Positions 1,779-22,189 of a DNA stretch of 36,968 nt are shown piece after piece (positions within the stretch are counted from its first letter, which is position 1; every line of letters starts with the position of its first letter). The translations under genes were made by a program, and so were the position numbers. Under the pieces are notes generated by a model, which did no database searches, was not told where the DNA came from, and saw nothing but the letters and a program-made list of their open reading frames with translations. Source of the stretch: Mucilaginibacter sp. (GTDB lineage: Bacteria > Bacteroidota > Bacteroidia > Sphingobacteriales > Sphingobacteriaceae). The stretch spans positions 1-36,968 of the forward strand of contig JAQBOY010000410.1 of assembly GCA_028287805.1 (NCBI GenBank), given 5' to 3'.

Positions 1779-2816
1779 ATGGACCAGCAACCCGAATTAA
1801 TTGAGCAGGAAGAACAAGACCTGTATGAGCATTTACGCATAGTTGTTGATAAGGGTCAATCCCTGTTGCGTATTGATAAATTTTTAATGCACCGTGTTGA
1901 AAATGCATCCCGCAACAGGGTGCAAAATGCCATTGAACTGGGTAATGTGCTGGTTAACGATAAAACTATAAAGGCGAGTTATAAAGTTAAGCCATTAGAT
2001 GTTATATCGGTAGTTTTACCTCATCCGCCACGCGATACAGAAGTATACCCCGAAGACCTGCCCATAAATATTTTTTATGAAGATCATGATGTGCTGGTAG
2101 TTAATAAGGCTGCAGGTATGGTGGTGCATCCGGGTTATAATAATTATACGGGTACCCTGGTTAACGCGCTTGTTTATCATTTTCAGCAGCTGCCAACTTT
2201 ACCCGGAAATGATGGCCGCCCGGGATTAGTGCACCGCATTGATAAAGACACTTCAGGTTTGTTGCTTATAAGTAAAAATGAGCGTTCCATGACCTGGCTG
2301 GCCAGGCAGTTTTTTGAACATACCATTACCCGTAAATACATTGCGCTTGTTTGGGGAGACCTGGAAGAGGACGGGACCGTAACAGGTTATATTGGCCGGA
2401 GTATAAACGACAGGCGGGTAATGTCAATTTATGACGACCCGGAGAAAGGAAAATGGTCTGTAACACATTATAAAGTTTTAGAGCGGATGAATTATGTTAC
2501 TTTAATAGAATGCGAACTGGAAACAGGCCGTACACATCAGATCAGGGCACATATGAAGCATATCGGGCATCCCTTATTTAGCGATGCAATATATGGTGGC
2601 GATAAAATTTTAAAGGGGACTGTTTTTAGCAAATACAAGCAATTTATTGAAAACTGTTTTGAAATAATGCCGCGGCAGGCCCTGCATGCTCAAACATTAG
2701 GATTTATGCATCCAACATTAAAAAAATATATCCATTTCGAAGCTCCTCTTCCGCCCGACTTTGAGACTGTTTTACAAAAATGGCGTAAGTATACAGGAAA
2801 TGCTATAGACGCATAA
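1779..2816 (+). CDS. rluD: RluA/RluD family 23S rRNA pseudouridine synthase
   Basis: N-terminal S4-like region, then GRPGLVHRIDKDTSGLLLISKN catalytic motif and ELETGRTHQIRAHMKHIGHPLFSDAIYGG. Confidence 0.9.
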   Translation: MDQQPELIEQEEQDLYEHLRIVVDKGQSLLRIDKFLMHRVENASRNRVQNAIELGNVLVNDKTIKASYKVKPLDVISVVLPHPPRDTEVYPEDLPINIFYEDHDVLVVNKAAGMVVHPGYNNYTGTLVNALVYHFQQLPTLPGNDGRPGLVHRIDKDTSGLLLISKNERSMTWLARQFFEHTITRKYIALVWGDLEEDGTVTGYIGRSINDRRVMSIYDDPEKGKWSVTHYKVLERMNYVTLIECELETGRTHQIRAHMKHIGHPLFSDAIYGGDKILKGTVFSKYKQFIENCFEIMPRQALHAQTLGFMHPTLKKYIHFEAPLPPDFETVLQKWRKYTGNAIDA

Positions 2817-2891
2817 TTAAACAGGATGTAGCAATCATTATATAAGCTTGAATGTTATACCCAATCAACCGATGCAGATAAAGCTTAAACA

Positions 2892-2928
2892 AAATCTGCA
2901 CATTTGCACAGTAATCATCTGCATATTT
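2892..2928 (+). repeat. Short intergenic repeat, copy A (GCACATTTGCACA..CATCTGCATATTT)
   Basis: AAATCTGCACATTTGCACAGTAATCATCTGCATATTT; nearly the same string occurs on the minus strand at about 11839-11872. Confidence 0.6.
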
Positions 2929-2938
2929 AATAATTTAA

Positions 2939-3778
2939 ATGACGCCTTTATTTATAAACTTTAATGGACAAATACTTCCCGATGACAGTAAATTACTGAC
3001 TGTTGCTAACCGTTCATTCCGTTATGGCGACGGTTTATTTGAAAGTATGCGGCTGCTAAAGGGGCATCTTAAATTTGCAGATCTGCATGCTGACCGTTTA
3101 CAGCGGGGTATGAAGGCGCTGAAAATTGATGGTTATTCGCAAATGGATGCCTGGTTTTTGAAGGATATTACTGAGCAACTGGCTATCCGGAATAAAGTAA
3201 AGCATGCCCGTTTACGCTTAACAGTTTACCGCGATTCTGAAGGGTTATATACACCCACGCAAAACTCCATGGGTTATTGCCTTGAGTTAACACCGGTTGA
3301 TGAGCCCCGCTATTTTTTAAACCCCAAAGGTTTGATTGTTGATATTTTTACTGATCTGCCAAAATCATCCAACTACCTGTCAAATATAAAAACGTGTAAT
3401 TCGCTTATTTATGTAATGGCTGCAATTTTTAAAGCGCAGAACAATTTGAACGAAGTTTTTTTACTGAACCAGAATGGATTTTTATGCGAAGCGGGCAGCG
3501 CCAATGTGTTTGTGTATTATCAAAATCATTTGTACACGCCTGCTTTAAGCGAAGGCTGCGTAGAAGGGATAATGCGGCAGGTGGTTATTAACCTGGCTAA
3601 AAAAATAAATATCCCGGTTACCGAAGCGCAGATAAATCCTGAAATTTTATATGAAGCTGATGAGGTTTTTATAACCAATGCCACCCGTGGCATACAATCA
3701 GTAATGGGTTACGGGGTAAGGCGTTATTTTAATAAAATTAGTAAGGTGCTGATGGATGAGTTGAATAAGTTGCCCTAA
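2939..3778 (+). CDS. Aminotransferase class IV (branched-chain aminotransferase / aminodeoxychorismate lyase-like)
   Basis: FRYGDGLFESMRL near N-terminus, catalytic-Lys region SNIKTCNSLIYV, EAGSANVFV motif. Confidence 0.85.
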   Translation: MTPLFINFNGQILPDDSKLLTVANRSFRYGDGLFESMRLLKGHLKFADLHADRLQRGMKALKIDGYSQMDAWFLKDITEQLAIRNKVKHARLRLTVYRDSEGLYTPTQNSMGYCLELTPVDEPRYFLNPKGLIVDIFTDLPKSSNYLSNIKTCNSLIYVMAAIFKAQNNLNEVFLLNQNGFLCEAGSANVFVYYQNHLYTPALSEGCVEGIMRQVVINLAKKINIPVTEAQINPEILYEADEVFITNATRGIQSVMGYGVRRYFNKISKVLMDELNKLP

Positions 3779-3808
3779 AAATGATTTAAATAGAAGCTTT
3801 GATCTCAA

Positions 3809-4603
3809 TTATTTCAATACAACTTCCTGTTTTCCTATAGCATTCAGTATACCATTCCAAAGGGCTATCCGTTCTTTTAAGGCTTCTTTAACAGCTTCAG
3901 TTGCTTCTTCCCATTTTGCGTCGTCATCCCCGCATAGATCGGCCGTCATTTGATAGGCTAATTGCGAATGATGGTCGCCGTCAACTTCAATATGGCGTTC
4001 TAAATAATAAAGCAATACATCTACTTTGCCCGGTAACTGATCATTAAGCTCTTTTACCATACTGATAAACATATCCGGTATCAGGTCTTCACGTCCGAAA
4101 GTAAAAACCGCTGCCTGTAAATAATTTTTATCGGTATCAATAACATCAAAAGTATGCTGAACAAAATTACGGACAGCCACAGGAATATTTGAATCAGCTA
4201 AAGCCTTGTTAATGCTTTTTCCATAACTTAATTCCTTAAATAAAGCGGTAATGGCATCAGCCCGGCAACCTGCCTGCTGCATTGCTCTTAAGTACAATTC
4301 AAAATGACTGGTGCGGTTGCCTTTTTCGTCGACATCACTTTCTTCGCCGGTCACAATTTCATTGATCAGGTAACGGGTATTGGCATTGCCAACAGGCATC
4401 CATGGTAAAATTGTACAAGTAAGGTTTTGTTGTAATGATTTAAGCAGCGACATGAAATCCCAAACGGCAAATACATGGTGCTCCATAAAAATGGCCAGTT
4501 CATTAATGGACTGGATATTTTTGTATAAGCTATGTTCTGTCAGTTGCCTGCGTAGTGGTTCAATTTGAGTTTTTAAAATTTCAATTCTGTTGCTGCTTTC
4601 CAT
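3809..4603 (-). CDS. DUF3050 domain-containing protein
   Basis: 264 aa; [18 protein letters not shown]...[13 protein letters not shown] pattern typical of DUF3050 (heme-oxygenase-like fold group). Confidence 0.75.
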
Positions 4604-4746
4604 ACTTGAGATATTACCCAGGGCAAAAGTAATAGTTTGAATGAAAAGGATACTACTATTAGTTTTTTGACTTATAATTGATGCATTTTTTCAGCTGATT
4701 TAATTAGATATAATGTTTAATATTTATGACTTTACAAGCAAATTAT

Positions 4747-7038: not shown

Positions 7039-8259
7039 TTGAGTTTCTCCTCTTTTATAGCCGGACGTATTACACTAAAGTCTAAGCGTACGTTTTCAAA
7101 GTTAATTGTACGTATAGCTATAGTGGGCATTATGCTGGGCCTTGGCGTAATGATCCTGTCATTAGCTGTTGTAAGGGGATTTAAACAGGAAATAAAAGAT
7201 AAGGTGCGCGGTTTTGACGGCGATATAAAAGTTGTTAAATATGATTTGAACGCATCCTATGAAAATTCTTCTTTTAAGGAAGATGCCGATTTTTTTAAAT
7301 TAGCTAAGCGTAGCCCTCTCATTACCCAAGTAATGCCTTTTGCTACTAAACCCGGTATTATTAAAGCTAATAACGAAATTGAGGGCGTAGTGCTAAAAGG
7401 GGTTGACAAGACTTACGATTGGTCATTCCTGAAAAAAAGTATGGTTTCGGGTAGTGTGATTGATTTTACCGATACGGCCGAAGCAAAAAAAGAACTCCTG
7501 ATATCTGAAGTAACCGCCAACCGTTTAAAACTTAAAACAGGCGACAAGCTTTTGATGTATTTTGTGCAGCAACCCTTAAGAAAGCGGCCATTTAAAGTAA
7601 AAGGTATTTTTAGCGCCGGAATTGAAGATATTGATAAGACTTATGTAATTGGCGACCTTTCCCTTATAAAGAAATTAAATAATTGGAATGCTGATACCAT
7701 TGGCGGTTATGAATTGCGGGTAGCCAATTTTGATGAGCTCACATTAGCAGCAAATTTTATTGACAATATATTACCCACCCGGTTAAAAGCTTATACTATA
7801 GTTGAAAATTATCCCAATATATTTGAGTGGCTAAAACTGCTGGATGTAAACGCGCAAATCATATTGGTGCTGATGTTAATTGTAGCCGTCATTAATATGA
7901 TTTCGGCCCTGTTAATCATGATACTGGAACGTACCACTATGATTGGTATATTTAAGGCTATGGGCGCAGGCAACTGGAGCATACAAAAAATATTTTTGTA
8001 CAATGCAGCCTACCTTATAGGCCTGGGTATAATTTTCGGCAATCTGTTTGGATTGGGGTTAAGTATATTTCAATTAAAAACCCATCTTTTTAAGCTCGAC
8101 CCGGAATCATACTATATGTCTTTTGTTCCCATACAACTTAACTGGCTTGATGTTATACTGCTCAACATTGGTACGATGCTCATTTGCTTGCTGGTATTGA
8201 TCATTCCTTCCATGCTGGTGTCCCGGATAACCCCGGTAAAGGATATCAGGTTTAAATAG
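7039..8259 (+). CDS. ABC transporter permease, FtsX/LolC-LolE-like
   Basis: Four predicted TM segments around an extracytoplasmic domain; MILERTTMIGIFKAMGAGNWSIQKIF motif. Start codon appears to be TTG. Confidence 0.87.
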   Translation: MSFSSFIAGRITLKSKRTFSKLIVRIAIVGIMLGLGVMILSLAVVRGFKQEIKDKVRGFDGDIKVVKYDLNASYENSSFKEDADFFKLAKRSPLITQVMPFATKPGIIKANNEIEGVVLKGVDKTYDWSFLKKSMVSGSVIDFTDTAEAKKELLISEVTANRLKLKTGDKLLMYFVQQPLRKRPFKVKGIFSAGIEDIDKTYVIGDLSLIKKLNNWNADTIGGYELRVANFDELTLAANFIDNILPTRLKAYTIVENYPNIFEWLKLLDVNAQIILVLMLIVAVINMISALLIMILERTTMIGIFKAMGAGNWSIQKIFLYNAAYLIGLGIIFGNLFGLGLSIFQLKTHLFKLDPESYYMSFVPIQLNWLDVILLNIGTMLICLLVLIIPSMLVSRITPVKDIRFK

Positions 8260-8372
8260 TTAAAATATCCGGTACTGATTCCAAAACGTAAAAGCCGGCT
8301 TTGGGCATTCTAGCTATATAAATAAGTTGCTGATAAAATGCTCAATAATCAATAAGGTAAGTAAATACTTTT

Positions 8373-9767
8373 TCATTTTTTTGAAGATTTAAAATCAAAC
8401 TTTAAGTTTAATCCGCCTGCTCCAAAACGAATTTGCTGCTGACCCAAACCATTAAGCGGATACTTTAAAAAAGGCTCAACAATGAGGTGGTTTTTACCTA
8501 ACGGATAGCCCAGACCAAAAGAAACATTTAAGGTTTTGGCAAAATAAAAGTTACTAAAACTGTTATTAGTTGTTTGAGACTGGGTTTGCGGTGCAGTTAA
8601 AAAGGCATTAGAATAGTTGTATTGATAAGTATAAGATTCATTGATGAAGGTTCCTGAACTTAAGCCCACCAAAACATAGCTGCTGTTTTTTTGAGGATTA
8701 AACTCATATTTCAAATTTACAGGAACATCTAAGGCAACTAATTGTGCATTGTAGTTTTTAAAAGTAGGAGAAGTATTACCGGTGTTACTGAGATAAGCAC
8801 TGGCAATGCTACTATGTTGAATGTTGGATGATAACAGGCTTTGCTGAACAACGGGTATTTGAGTAGCAAAGTTTAGAGTGTTTTGTGCAATAGCTACGCC
8901 TGTAGAAAGCTTTAAATTTTTACTGAGCTTAATATCAGATGTAATACCGGCACCTAAATTTAATTGTGTGTTACTGCCCCTGGCATAATTAAAGTAGGTA
9001 GCCGCATAAATACCAAACTCAATCTTTTTCTGGTTATCTTCTTTTTTTCTAACGGTTTCCTTGTATTTTAATTCATTATCCTTGTTATTAGTAAGCAATG
9101 GATTATTAGTAAGCAATGGAGTTTTAAGTTTGGGCGCTGGTTTTTCAGCGGAAGCTATCATACCATCTTTGCTAATTGTATCATTAACTGCCATAGGCAG
9201 ATTTGACTGATTATTGCTTGCGGCAAGATTATCACTACTGCCTTTTTCAGATTTATCAGCAGGTATAGTTGCGGTGGAATTTTCAGCGATATAATGATTC
9301 ACAGGAGGTTTGGGCGTAGCCCCTTTATCCTTGTTTTTAATACGAGCAGCCTTGGTTGCTATTAACGGTAAATTATTGGGGGGGAGTACATGATTTTTAG
9401 GGAGTACATGAACTGCAACAACTGCATTGTCAGTATCCGTTTTGTTTAAACCATCCGGCTTTTTATTTTTAATGATTGGCTGATTTTTATAAAGTAGTTT
9501 ATTTTCTTCCCGGTAAGTTTTAACCCGTTTGTAAGCCAATTTTTTAGGTTCCTCTTGTTGGTAATTAACCCATGTGCCAATTCCCAACAACAGCAGTAAA
9601 ATAGCGGCGGCCAAACCTCGCCATAACCATATCACACCCCGGTCTTTTTCCTTTTCAGGGAATTTTTTCCGGAGCAGCAACCAGCCTTCATCAGCAGAAG
9701 GGGCTTCGAAATTTTCGAACACCTCTCTGATGTGGTTCTTTAGGTTATTATTAAACTGCTCATCCAT
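8373..9767 (-). CDS. Predicted dual-membrane-spanning anti-sigma factor: cytoplasmic N-terminus, single TM, long periplasmic linker, C-terminal outer-membrane beta-barrel-like domain
   Basis: FENFEAPSADEGWLLLRKKF N-terminus, TM IWLWRGLAAAILLLLLGIGTWV, low-complexity Lys/Asn/Pro linker, then alternating-strand barrel-like sequence FGIYAATYFNYARG...LKFDFKSS. Start overlaps the sigma factor stop. Confidence 0.7.
   Translation of the reverse strand: MDEQFNNNLKNHIREVFENFEAPSADEGWLLLRKKFPEKEKDRGVIWLWRGLAAAILLLLLGIGTWVNYQQEEPKKLAYKRVKTYREENKLLYKNQPIIKNKKPDGLNKTDTDNAVVAVHVLPKNHVLPPNNLPLIATKAARIKNKDKGATPKPPVNHYIAENSTATIPADKSEKGSSDNLAASNNQSNLPMAVNDTISKDGMIASAEKPAPKLKTPLLTNNPLLTNNKDNELKYKETVRKKEDNQKKIEFGIYAATYFNYARGSNTQLNLGAGITSDIKLSKNLKLSTGVAIAQNTLNFATQIPVVQQSLLSSNIQHSSIASAYLSNTGNTSPTFKNYNAQLVALDVPVNLKYEFNPQKNSSYVLVGLSSGTFINESYTYQYNYSNAFLTAPQTQSQTTNNSFSNFYFAKTLNVSFGLGYPLGKNHLIVEPFLKYPLNGLGQQQIRFGAGGLNLKFDFKSSKK
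9085..9120 (-). repeat. Perfect 18-bp tandem duplication inside the anti-sigma linker
   Basis: TTATTAGTAAGCAATGGA twice (9085-9102, 9103-9120), encoding PLLTNN-type hexapeptide repeats. Confidence 0.95.
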
Positions 9768-10314
9768 GATTTTGCTGTTCTTTATTAAGGATATTCCTTA
9801 GTTTCTCTTTAGCCCTGGTTAAATAAACACGTGATGAACTTGGCGACAGGCCAAGTATTTGCGCAATTTCATCATGGTTATAACCATCTATTTCATATAA
9901 ATTAAAAACAGTTATTTGTACTGCCGGAAGCTGCCTCATTAGTTTTAAAATGTCCTGAGCATTCAGGTTATCAATGGCAGTTACCGTATAACTTAATGCT
10001 TCTGCATTTTCCAGATCAGTATTGAATTGAAATTTCAATTCTTTTCGCCTCCTGTCAATAGCGGTATTAATAATGATACTGCGTAGCCAGGGCTTAAAGG
10101 GTTTGTCAGTAGCATAACTGCTTATAGCGTTAAATACTTTTATAAATGCATCGTTCACCACTTCAACCGCATCCTCCCTTGAAAAGCAATAACGTAAACT
10201 AATCCCCATAGCATAGCCATAGAATAGCTTGTACAGCATTTCCTGATATTTTAAGCTGCCTGTTTTACAGTGGCGAATAATCTCTTCTTCAGCAACGCCC
10301 GGGCGTAGATGCAT
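9760..10314 (-). CDS. RNA polymerase sigma-70 family (ECF) factor
   Basis: Region 2: YGYAMGISLRYCFSREDAVEVVNDAFIKVFNAI...FKPWLRSIIINTAIDRRRK; region 4: YNHDEIAQILGLSPSSSRVYLTRAKEKLRNIL. Confidence 0.95.
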   Translation of the reverse strand: MHLRPGVAEEEIIRHCKTGSLKYQEMLYKLFYGYAMGISLRYCFSREDAVEVVNDAFIKVFNAISSYATDKPFKPWLRSIIINTAIDRRRKELKFQFNTDLENAEALSYTVTAIDNLNAQDILKLMRQLPAVQITVFNLYEIDGYNHDEIAQILGLSPSSSRVYLTRAKEKLRNILNKEQQNHG

Positions 10315-10522
10315 TAAAATTTTTTATATCAATAAATATCTTTTTGTTTTTTATCCTTTACGTAACAAAGGCCATACTTGCTACAAGTAAAGCAAATTAA
10401 TTAACAGATAAAATCAAGTCATTAATATAATGGCTGAAAAAGAGGAGCGGGAGAACATTAACTGATATGCCTGTTTATTTTTTTAGAATAAACAAGCATA
10501 TTGCTATAATCTACGTACTATA

Positions 10523-10969
10523 TTATTTAGCTTTCAGCACATAATTATAACCTATAGTATCGGCCGAAGATGCAAAAAGTTGAAGGTTTGTACCATCATA
10601 GAGGTATTGATACACGCCGTTTAAATGAATTTTACCGGATGGGCTTGTTTTTACTGTAGTTGTACCCGAAGGTAAGGTTAGGTCGATAAACTGGATATAT
10701 TGACTATCAGCAATATAGGAACCACGGCTGCCGGCCTGTAGGGTTGTTGTATCACCTGTTACAGCGTATCCGGTAGTGGCAGACATAGTTAATACGATGT
10801 TAGCCGATGTAGTGTCCTTTTTGTTTGTTTGGGAGTTTAAATGTATAACCACAAACGGGCCGCTAAAAGTGCCGGATGGTAAAATAACAGGAGTAGGCGT
10901 GTATTTTGTTGAGCATCCGGCTATTAACAACAATACAGATGGCACCAGGCAGGTAAATATTTTTTTCAT
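10523..10969 (-). CDS. Putative lipoprotein of unknown function
   Basis: Signal peptide with lipobox LLIAGC; beta-rich 148 aa. Confidence 0.7.
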   Translation of the reverse strand: MKKIFTCLVPSVLLLIAGCSTKYTPTPVILPSGTFSGPFVVIHLNSQTNKKDTTSANIVLTMSATTGYAVTGDTTTLQAGSRGSYIADSQYIQFIDLTLPSGTTTVKTSPSGKIHLNGVYQYLYDGTNLQLFASSADTIGYNYVLKAK

Positions 10970-11030
10970 AACAATTCATTTTATAGGTATTACGATAAAA
11001 TTATTAAATACGCTACAGTAAAAATTAAAT

Positions 11031-19144: not shown

Positions 19145-22100
19145 ATGGATAGCAATAAAAAATACTGGAAAGGTTTAGAAGAACTAAACAAAACACCGGA
19201 ATTTGTTGAGAAAAACAAACACGAATTCGCTGAACCTATTCCTATCGAAGATGTTTTAAGCGGAAACGGTTTAATGGGGAAAACTCCCCGCCGCGACTTT
19301 TTAAAGGCAGTAGGCTTTGGCGTTGGCGCCGTTACGCTGGCTGCTTGTCAAAAAGTACCGGTACATAAATCTATACCTTATTTAATTAAGCCAGAAGAAG
19401 TAACACCGGGCGTAGCTAATTACTATTCCTCAACTTATGATGGACACGCTATTTTGGTTAAAACCCGTGAAGGCCGTCCTATTAAAATTGAAGGTAATCC
19501 TAATGATCTTTTATCTAAAGGCGGTTTAAGTGCCCAGGCACAAGCTTCAGTATTGGATTTATATGACGTTAACCGTCTGAAAAATCCAATGAAGGGTACC
19601 ACTGAATACGAGTGGAACGAAATTGACGCCTTTGTAATACGCGAACTTGCAGCTATTAAAACAAGCGGCAAACAAATACGTATTGTTTCATCAACAGTAC
19701 ACAGTCCTTCAACATTAGCTGTAATAGCTGATTTTATTGCACAGTACCCTACTACAAAACATATCAATTATGATGCGGTATCCTATACTGGTATCATACA
19801 AGCCAATCAAAATAGTTTCGGAAAAGCAATCTTGCCTCACTACCGTTTTGATAAGGCTGATGTTATCGTAAGTTTCGGTGCAGATTTTCTGGGTTCATGG
19901 ATATCTCCAACTGAATTTACTACCCAATACGTACAAAATCGTAATAACAAATCGCTGCAAAGCAAAAAAATGTCACGTCATATCCAGTTTGAAACCGGTA
20001 TGAGCCTGACAGGTACTAACGCTGATGTACGTATTCCTATCAAAGCATCTGAAGAAGGTGTTGCACTGGTGAATTTATACAATGCTATTGCAGGTACTAC
20101 TTTACCGGGTACAAAAAAATTAGCTAATAATTCAGCTAATAACGCTATCATCCTGGCTGCGAAAGAATTAGAGGCCGCTAAAGGTAAAGCGTTGGTAGTA
20201 GCAGGTTCAAATGATGTAGCTACACAAGTATTGGTTAATGCCATCAATTCATTATTAGGCAGCTATGGTACTACTATTGATATGGATAATTACTCCAATC
20301 AATATGCAGGAAACGATGCTGAATTTGTTGAATTTATAAATGAGATTAAACGCGGAGATGTTGACGCGGTATTTTTCCTGAACGCTAACCCGGCTTATGA
20401 TTACTTTAATAGTAAAGATATTACCGACGCGTTGGCTAAAGTACGGTTAAAAGTATCTTTCTCTGATCATAAGGATGAAACTACATCACTTTGTAATGTT
20501 ATAGCACCCAACCATTATTATCTGGAATCATGGGGCGATGATAATATTATAGAAGGATATTATACGGTTTTACAACCAACTATTAACCCGGTGTACAATA
20601 CCCGCCAGGCTGAACAAAGCTTGTTGGTATGGTCTGATGCTCCGGTTAAAGAATACTATACTTACGTTAGAAATAACTGGGATAAAAATCTTTTAGCTAA
20701 AGGCGGCTTATCCGGTCAAAAAGGATGGGAAACCTTATTGCAAACAGGTTTTATAAAAGTAGCTGATAAACCTGCAGGTATTTATTCATTCACACGTGAT
20801 TTGAATGCGGTTGCAGGTACTATATTGGCACAAAGCGATCAGCTGGTAGCATCCGGAGATAAAAAGATGGAACTGCAGCTTTACAAGAGCGTTGCCATGC
20901 AGGATGGTAAACGCGCCAATAATCCATGGTTACAGGAATTGCCTGATCCGGTATCAAAAGTAACCTGGGATAACTTTGCAGCATTATCACTAACAGATTT
21001 TAAAAAATTAAACCTTAATGAGGGTGATGTTATAACTATTGACGCCAATGGTTATTCTATAGCGCTACCGGTATTATTACAACCCGGCCAGGCAGAAGGT
21101 ACAATTTCTGTAGCCTTAGGTTATGGTCGTACAATGGCTGGCCCGGTAGGAGATGGCGTAGGGAAAAATGCTTTCCCTTTCCGCAAATTCCGTAATGGTA
21201 CATTACAATCTACCAATGTTGTAACTATCGGAGCAACTGAGGATAACATAATACTGGCTCAAACTCAAACACACCATTCATACGAAGGCCGTAATGTTAT
21301 TCGTGAAACGGTATTAAAGGATTATGTAAAAGATCCTTATCATGGTACCGGTCATACTACCGAGCATAAAGCTTACAAAAGCTTGTGGAATGAGTATCAG
21401 CGCCCAACCTATAACTGGGTAATGGCTATTGACTTAAATGCCTGTACCGGTTGCGGTGCCTGCGTAGTAGCCTGTAACGCTGAAAACAACGTTCCGGTTG
21501 TAGGGCGTGATGAAGTTCGTCGTCGCCGTGAAATGCACTGGATACGTATTGACCGTTACTACAGCTTTAATGAGGCTGGTACAACTGTAACCGAAGAGAA
21601 AGAAATTGGTAAACTGGATAACCTTAACAATGTGTCGGTTGTGCATCAGCCAATGCTATGTCAGCATTGTGATCACGCGCCTTGTGAAACAGTTTGCCCG
21701 GTATTAGCTACCGTTCACTCATCAGAAGGTTTAAACCACATGGCTTATAACCGCTGCGTAGGTACACGTTATTGCGCTAATAACTGCCCGTATAAAGTAC
21801 GCCGTTTTAACTGGTTTAACTACTGGAACGACTCACGTTTTGAAAACTATATTCAAAATGAGCATACGCTATTAGTATTAAATCCTGACGTAACTACACG
21901 TTTCCGTGGTGTAATGGAAAAATGCAGCATGTGTATACAACGTATCCAGGCTGGAAAGTTAAAAGCTAAAATAGAAAAACGCCCGCTTAAAGATGGTGAC
22001 GTTAAAGTTGCCTGTCAGCAAACTTGCCCTGCTAATGCTATTGTTTTTGGTAACGGAAATGATCCGGAATCAGAAGTTTCAAAAGCATTAAGAAGTGAAA

Positions 22101-22189
22101 GAACTTATTACGTGCTGGAAGAATTAGGTGTGCAGCCGGGTATTGGTTACCAGGTAAAGGTTAGAAACAGAACTGAATTAGAAGCTTAA
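19145..22189 (+). CDS. actB: Alternative complex III subunit ActB (TAT signal, molybdopterin-oxidoreductase-like, Fe-S domain)
   Basis: TPRRDFLKAVGFGVGAVTLAAC twin-Arg plus lipobox; clusters CTGCGACVVAC, CQHCDHAPCETVCP, CVGTRYCANNCPY, CSMC...CQQTCP. Confidence 0.97.
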   Translation: MDSNKKYWKGLEELNKTPEFVEKNKHEFAEPIPIEDVLSGNGLMGKTPRRDFLKAVGFGVGAVTLAACQKVPVHKSIPYLIKPEEVTPGVANYYSSTYDGHAILVKTREGRPIKIEGNPNDLLSKGGLSAQAQASVLDLYDVNRLKNPMKGTTEYEWNEIDAFVIRELAAIKTSGKQIRIVSSTVHSPSTLAVIADFIAQYPTTKHINYDAVSYTGIIQANQNSFGKAILPHYRFDKADVIVSFGADFLGSWISPTEFTTQYVQNRNNKSLQSKKMSRHIQFETGMSLTGTNADVRIPIKASEEGVALVNLYNAIAGTTLPGTKKLANNSANNAIILAAKELEAAKGKALVVAGSNDVATQVLVNAINSLLGSYGTTIDMDNYSNQYAGNDAEFVEFINEIKRGDVDAVFFLNANPAYDYFNSKDITDALAKVRLKVSFSDHKDETTSLCNVIAPNHYYLESWGDDNIIEGYYTVLQPTINPVYNTRQAEQSLLVWSDAPVKEYYTYVRNNWDKNLLAKGGLSGQKGWETLLQTGFIKVADKPAGIYSFTRDLNAVAGTILAQSDQLVASGDKKMELQLYKSVAMQDGKRANNPWLQELPDPVSKVTWDNFAALSLTDFKKLNLNEGDVITIDANGYSIALPVLLQPGQAEGTISVALGYGRTMAGPVGDGVGKNAFPFRKFRNGTLQSTNVVTIGATEDNIILAQTQTHHSYEGRNVIRETVLKDYVKDPYHGTGHTTEHKAYKSLWNEYQRPTYNWVMAIDLNACTGCGACVVACNAENNVPVVGRDEVRRRREMHWIRIDRYYSFNEAGTTVTEEKEIGKLDNLNNVSVVHQPMLCQHCDHAPCETVCPVLATVHSSEGLNHMAYNRCVGTRYCANNCPYKVRRFNWFNYWNDSRFENYIQNEHTLLVLNPDVTTRFRGVMEKCSMCIQRIQAGKLKAKIEKRPLKDGDVKVACQQTCPANAIVFGNGNDPESEVSKALRSERTYYVLEELGVQPGIGYQVKVRNRTELEA

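Follow-up and report, generated by a model that had tools for sequence, protein, structure and literature searches.

Dma and Reo proteins have been reported to connect, each within a single polypeptide, the outer membrane with transcription, and they have effects on vesicles, toxin resistance and gut fitness. The locus studied here raises the question of whether an ECF sigma factor gene and the 464-aa ORF overlapping it form such a switch in Mucilaginibacter, a soil-type bacterium, and which genes the sigma factor would control. The window, i.e. the whole stretch of 36,968 nt that was analysed, is an entire contig, C58; the genome assembly to which it belongs has a completeness of 85%. A preliminary description of this DNA had delimited the two ORFs, and re-checking of the ORFs together with Pfam searches returned the same coordinates, strand and 8-nt overlap (9760-9767). 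The features discussed below are collected in Table 1.

Table 1. Features of the sigma-dma locus and of the neighbouring lipoprotein gene (positions in the window)
Feature	Position	Strand	Basis or remarks
Third operon gene, 21-codon remnant	8314..8376	-	Begins in ATGA overlap with dma stop, as in relatives
dma, anti-sigma ORF	8373..9767	-	464 aa
Anti-sigma residues 249-464, C-terminal outer-membrane barrel	8376..9023	-	AlphaFold2, Foldseek; PF13568 E=4e-5, just below cut-off
Anti-sigma residues 70-248, disordered periplasmic tether, 179 aa	9024..9560	-	Mostly pLDDT<50
Anti-sigma residues 45-69, single transmembrane helix	9561..9635	-	Sequence; helix 43-69 in AlphaFold2 model
Anti-sigma residues 1-44, predicted cytoplasmic sigma-binding domain, two helices	9636..9767	-	60% mean identity, 56 relatives; homology to NigD-linked Dma
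ECF sigma factor gene (Das/EcfO-type)	9760..10314	-	184 aa; Pfam Sigma70_r2 9e-12, Sigma70_r4_2 3e-14, both above cut-off
Predicted ECF promoter of sigma-dma operon, TGTAGC-N17-CGTA	10359..10385	-	Pattern in 61/79 sigma upstreams, spacing 17 in 54
RNA hairpin after lipoprotein gene	10455..10525	-	-17 kcal/mol, z=-3.7
Small lipoprotein gene, predicted cis target of sigma	10523..10969	-	148 aa; conserved Cys19 after signal peptide; syntenic in 74/80 loci
Predicted ECF promoter of lipoprotein gene, TGTAGC-N17-CGTA	10991..11017	-	Pattern in 71/75 lipoprotein upstreams

Gene order and architecture of the anti-sigma factor

The sigma gene lies upstream of dma in 78 of 80 relatives, and the overlap between the two genes recurs in most of them (8 or 20 nt), so the arrangement is not due to chance. 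The gene order in relatives is MazG, small lipoprotein, sigma, dma, in some a secreted outer-membrane-type protein, and then a convergent LolC/E-like permease, NamZ and Fmt. The secreted protein (about 235-256 aa) is encoded by a third operon gene in approximately 25 of the 80 relatives. As had been remarked in the preliminary description, the pair has no adjacent TonB receptor, its neighbours being the LolC/E-like permease, the lipoprotein and MazG; a domain search of the window found neither a FecR domain in the anti-sigma factor nor an adjoining TonB-dependent receptor. The locus thus resembles FecI-FecR in combining an ECF sigma factor with a membrane-bound anti-sigma partner and a predicted outer-membrane signal, but differs from it on both of these points and in that the anti-sigma factor has its own predicted barrel.

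Two further genes of the window may be mentioned here. The LolC/E-like lipoprotein-releasing permease (7039-8259, + strand) is convergent with dma, and a gene of the same size and strand occurs in 66 of the 80 relatives; its place beside a predicted regulator of lipoproteins is perhaps a chance of synteny. Farther away, positions 19145-22189 (+) encode a molybdopterin-oxidoreductase-like protein fused to 4Fe-4S domains, within a same-strand run from 17820 to about 33600 that resembles an alternative complex III plus oxidase operon.

An AlphaFold2 model of the anti-sigma factor was built on an alignment of 57 sequences. The preliminary description had noted a short cytoplasmic region, one transmembrane segment and a linker of about 180 aa, and the model agrees with this layout, giving 44 aa, a helix at residues 43-69 and a disordered tether of 179 aa. 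The N-terminal region forms two helices (residues 3-18 and 24-35) with invariant alignment columns at F17, G28, W29, L32 and P37. The transmembrane helix carries basic residues on its N side, and a cleavable signal peptide is absent. Nearly all of residues 75-222 have pLDDT <50. Across relatives the tether shows 17% identity, its length ranging from 142 to 246 aa (coefficient of variation 0.12), and the mean identity is 56% in the barrel vs 60% in the N-terminus. Judging from the alignment, a segment that is free in sequence yet constrained in length is the pattern expected of a physical tether across the periplasm.

The C-terminal sequence had been called barrel-like, and a soluble periplasmic domain had been named as the outcome that would speak against this; no such domain appeared, and the model gave a confident barrel of eight strands (residues 249-458, pLDDT mostly 85-96). 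The top Foldseek matches in the PDB are 8-stranded outer-membrane barrels, namely OmpA (5.7e-7), Ail, NspA and OmpX, with a probability of 1.00. A match to PF13568 at E<=0.01 was obtained for 20 of the 57 relatives, and a sequence search of the anti-sigma factor against solved structures returned nothing useful.

One relative (L029, 1148-2788, - strand) has its N-terminal anti-sigma module repeated in tandem, with three almost identical units of about 33 aa each, and two others (L244 and L251) have apparently two diverged copies. The tandem modules delimit the predicted sigma-binding unit, and they may change the stoichiometry of the system.

Distribution and relationship to Dma and Reo

An orthologue of the anti-sigma factor (E<=1e-20) was found in 132 of 150 Mucilaginibacter genomes. 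Its close relatives are nearly all from this genus, on which ground we take the window for part of a Mucilaginibacter MAG, and many other genera of Sphingobacteriaceae also have an orthologue. In a class-wide search, many more loci of similar layout were found in which a sigma gene is paired with the gene of a long membrane anti-sigma factor.

Members of the Dma family are defined as having an anti-sigma domain, a transmembrane helix, a disordered tether and a barrel at the C-terminus, with an ECF21 sigma factor encoded next to them, and the family is restricted to Bacteroidota (PMC13088901). The preliminary description had pointed to dual membrane-spanning anti-sigma factors in Bacteroides thetaiotaomicron linked to outer-membrane vesiculation. 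Such a family does exist, comprising Dma1 and Dma2 of B. thetaiotaomicron (PMC13088901), in which the vesiculation phenotype is known, and also the EcfO-associated Reo of B. fragilis and P. vulgatus (PMC9308784, PMC13114119). The assignment of the window locus to this family was supported as well: all four architectural parts are present according to AlphaFold2 and Foldseek, and profile matches were obtained at both ends.

The sequence link to Dma and Reo was sought via NigD, the lipoprotein family under the control of EcfO and Das1. In two genomes (L280 and L281), the NigD gene and a sigma-anti-sigma pair are arranged head to head, and the anti-sigma factor of this pair has a C-terminal barrel domain above the Pfam cut-off. 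The N-terminus and transmembrane segment of the window family matched those of NigD-linked, Bacteroidales-type anti-sigma factors (hhalign probability 91, E 1e-6), and for the barrel a match was obtained to a set of 14 distant barrel proteins linked to sigma factors (probability 99.2, E 8e-20). The sigma factor shares 29% identity over 175 aa with that of a NigD-linked pair; in NCBIfam, generic ECF is the sole level at which it scores above cut-off. No mention of Dma together with Sphingobacteria was found in the open-licence papers searched.

Taken together, sequence and model support the view that the locus encodes a Dma/Reo-type switch in which one protein connects outer membrane and cytoplasm, with sigma binding, signal and release as predicted steps. 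The 464-aa protein adds a member to a known family; what is new is the predicted promoter, the predicted lipoprotein regulon and, within it, the replacement of NigD by lipoproteins of other families.

The genome of the window carries a second sigma/Dma pair (L262, G000:C186:1-7500, positions 2675-4626, - strand), after which YceI and DUF5777 outer-membrane genes follow.

Promoter motif and predicted lipoprotein targets

In the window as in most relatives, one motif, TGTAGC-N17-CGTA, stands before the sigma gene and again before the adjacent lipoprotein gene. Among spacings of 13 to 21, strict matches in the loci number 88 at N17, 17 at N16 and at most five at each other spacing. A recognisable copy upstream of the sigma gene is missing in 18 of 79 relatives, and the sigma-operon promoter of the window itself has three mismatches to the longer consensus given below. 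The strong hairpin probably separates the lipoprotein transcript from the sigma transcript, giving two transcripts. While the preliminary description was right about the architecture of the pair, it missed the promoter and the lipoprotein regulon, the most informative part of the locus.

The cis lipoprotein is modelled with eight strands (pLDDT 87). We call its predicted fold lipocalin-like from strand number and shape only; Foldseek gave no significant match (best E 0.04), and the window's protein matched no Pfam family. Among 51 cis lipoproteins no NigD match was obtained, and no NigD_N domain was found in the genome of the window.

With the longer consensus, TGTAGCGTT-N14-CGTAA, many sites were found in 61 genomes of the genus, while the reversed control gave a single one. 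With duplicates as well as the cis lipoprotein and sigma genes taken out, 32 of the 47 trans sites (68%) precede lipoprotein genes vs 8.7% of background ORFs (binomial 2e-23, a value that overstates the independence of the sites); the lipoprotein signal was called by our own pattern rule, which was the same for targets and background. The trans targets belong to many lipoprotein families unrelated by BLAST. Among sites fetched later, whose N-termini were read, 7/7 in the genus and 6/10 in other orthologue-bearing genera stand before lipoprotein genes.

The motif also co-occurs with the anti-sigma factor. Among good genomes of the genus, it is present in 73 of 109 with the orthologue vs none of nine without it (Fisher 1e-4), and outside the genus in 13 of 47 vs 3 of 119 (5e-6); the genomes are related rather than independent samples, and the p-values are guides, not exact. 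In orthologue-free genomes, two of three motif sites fall inside ORFs on the opposite strand. Many orthologue-bearing genomes have no perfect motif.

For the motif signal to be seen, the longer consensus and a comparison across genomes are required. A first loose pattern, applied to the genome of the window, gave no excess over control (22 vs 28). A two-mismatch search there returned mostly background (35 sites vs 28 in the reversed control), and therefore the selection was restricted to sites closely followed by a start codon. Two more lipoprotein genes of this genome, on contigs C326 and C457, have the motif 8-9 nt before the start codon.

The non-lipoprotein trans sites include glycosyltransferase genes. 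In two orthologue-bearing genomes of other genera (L291 and L292), a gene resembling those of glycosyltransferases has the motif upstream and may be a target outside the lipoproteins. Loss of the anti-sigma factor in P. vulgatus also alters LPS, and a glycosyltransferase gene is upregulated (PMC9308784).

These distributions suggest that TGTAGC-N17-CGTA is most likely the sequence that the sigma factor reads, and that its targets are mostly small surface-type lipoproteins. As predicted from the promoter motif, the circuit would regulate itself and would comprise a set of lipoproteins gated from the outer membrane, in analogy to the control of NigD lipoproteins by EcfO. The upstream regions of NigD-linked pairs did not show the motif; thus, conservation of the Mucilaginibacter promoter does not extend across orders. 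In front of the sigma gene of the second pair, inspection by eye revealed GGCAACC-N15/16-CGTG, which is common to two relatives (L264 and L266), and therefore the two pairs of this genome seem to use different -35 elements.

The closest known systems can be compared on this basis. In EcfO-Reo of Bacteroides fragilis and Phocaeicola vulgatus (M0N98_03761/03760), the sigma gene is followed by that of a dual-membrane anti-sigma factor with a C-terminal barrel, and activity of the system goes along with strong induction of the sigma gene (PMC9308784, PMC13114119). EcfO-Reo and Das1 control NigD lipoproteins (PMC13114119, PMC9308784, PMC13088901). The P. vulgatus nigD gene M0N98_03762 has a locus tag next to those of the sigma (03761) and anti-sigma (03760) genes (PMC13114119, PMC9308784), from which we infer that the three are adjacent. 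The window thus shares with EcfO-Reo, in kind, the cluster of lipoprotein, sigma and anti-sigma genes as well as a lipoprotein regulon, which here is predicted from the promoter motif. In contrast to the NigD lipoproteins of EcfO-Reo, those predicted here are lipocalin-like or belong to several other families and lack a NigD domain, and the bacterial family is a different one. Das1-Dma1 and Das2-Dma2 of Bacteroides thetaiotaomicron, compared via the NigD-linked relatives, show the same four-part architecture with an adjacent sigma factor; a vesiculation phenotype is known for these systems.

Proposed mechanism, alternatives and significance

We propose that the locus is a Dma/Reo-type switch which releases a sigma factor for a TGTAGC-N17-CGTA regulon, and we put the probability of this whole explanation at roughly 0.78. 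The computation supports the architecture and the homology as well as the conserved synteny, the promoter motif, the class of the targets and the phyletic co-occurrence, while we infer the binding and release of the sigma factor, the signal and what the lipoproteins do. In this mechanism, the N-terminal 44 residues would most likely keep the sigma factor bound at the inner membrane, with the single transmembrane helix serving as a signal anchor, and the disordered, length-constrained tether would span the periplasm to the 8-strand outer-membrane barrel. A disturbance of the outer membrane, such as barrel misassembly, a ligand, or a change in the membrane or its spacing, would be the trigger; it would be transmitted along the tether or would trigger cleavage, and the sigma factor would be freed by a pull, a conformational change or cleavage. 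The free sigma factor would then read TGTAGC-N17-CGTA promoters, amplify its own operon, so that more anti-sigma factor is made too, and turn on the adjacent lipocalin-like lipoprotein together with a scattered set of small lipoproteins.

Several alternatives have to be weighed against this. Bacteroidota genomes usually contain several ECF sigma factors, and the architecture could be as described while the motif is read by another of them that also drives the operon, the sigma factor of the locus having different targets of its own. The generic ECF shape of the motif and the second sigma/Dma pair of the genome would fit this possibility, which we consider unlikely, since the sigma operon itself carries the motif, operon and motif co-occur, and the second pair has a different upstream motif, GGCAACC-N15/16-CGTG. 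We regard it as quite improbable that the barrel is a mere anchor or part of a receptor, with the signal given by a separate outer-membrane protein, either the third operon gene or another, in the manner of FecA-FecR. The ATGA-coupled secreted gene behind dma in about 25 of 80 relatives points in that direction; however, most relatives lack this gene, and the window retains a remnant of 21 codons, with sigma and dma kept, and there is neither an adjacent TonB receptor nor a FecR domain. An ordinary single-membrane anti-sigma factor with a soluble periplasmic beta domain at its C-terminus is very improbable: the Pfam barrel match of the window protein does fall just below cut-off, but the model is confident, its best structural matches are outer-membrane barrels, and relatives match barrel families, above cut-off in the NigD-linked ones.

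The nature of the signal is a separate matter. Instead of general outer-membrane stress, the barrel might sense a specific surface ligand such as a glycan, which would be a compatible variant of the switch proposed above. Deletion of Dma2 has a phenotype on glycan-use loci, for which glycan sensing has been proposed (PMC13088901), and the strand 3-4 region of the barrel is long and variable. We hold this variant to be rather unlikely, as outer-membrane toxins, oxygen and conditions in the gut are what EcfO-Reo, a close relative, responds to (PMC9308784, PMC13114119), and none of the immediately neighbouring genes was recognised as one for sugar use. This response of EcfO-Reo favours outer-membrane stress as the signal of the proposed switch, and a role of the window's Dma in vesicle formation is plausible, by analogy alone.

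With the motif and the predicted targets at hand, and with about 130 orthologue-bearing genomes in the genus, several of them of cultured strains, the regulon becomes directly testable outside the gut. Tentatively, and with somewhat less than even odds, Dma-type anti-sigma factors may constitute a general outer-membrane homeostasis system across Bacteroidota, the constant output of which would be small lipoproteins. The architecture of sensor and tether would persist, whereas promoter sequence and lipoprotein families would be freely exchanged (NigD in Bacteroidales, lipocalin-like and other families in Sphingobacteriaceae), and paralogous pairs in one cell would be insulated by different -35 elements. 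The motif and the target list suggest that the conserved feature is the lipoprotein output, not the NigD family.
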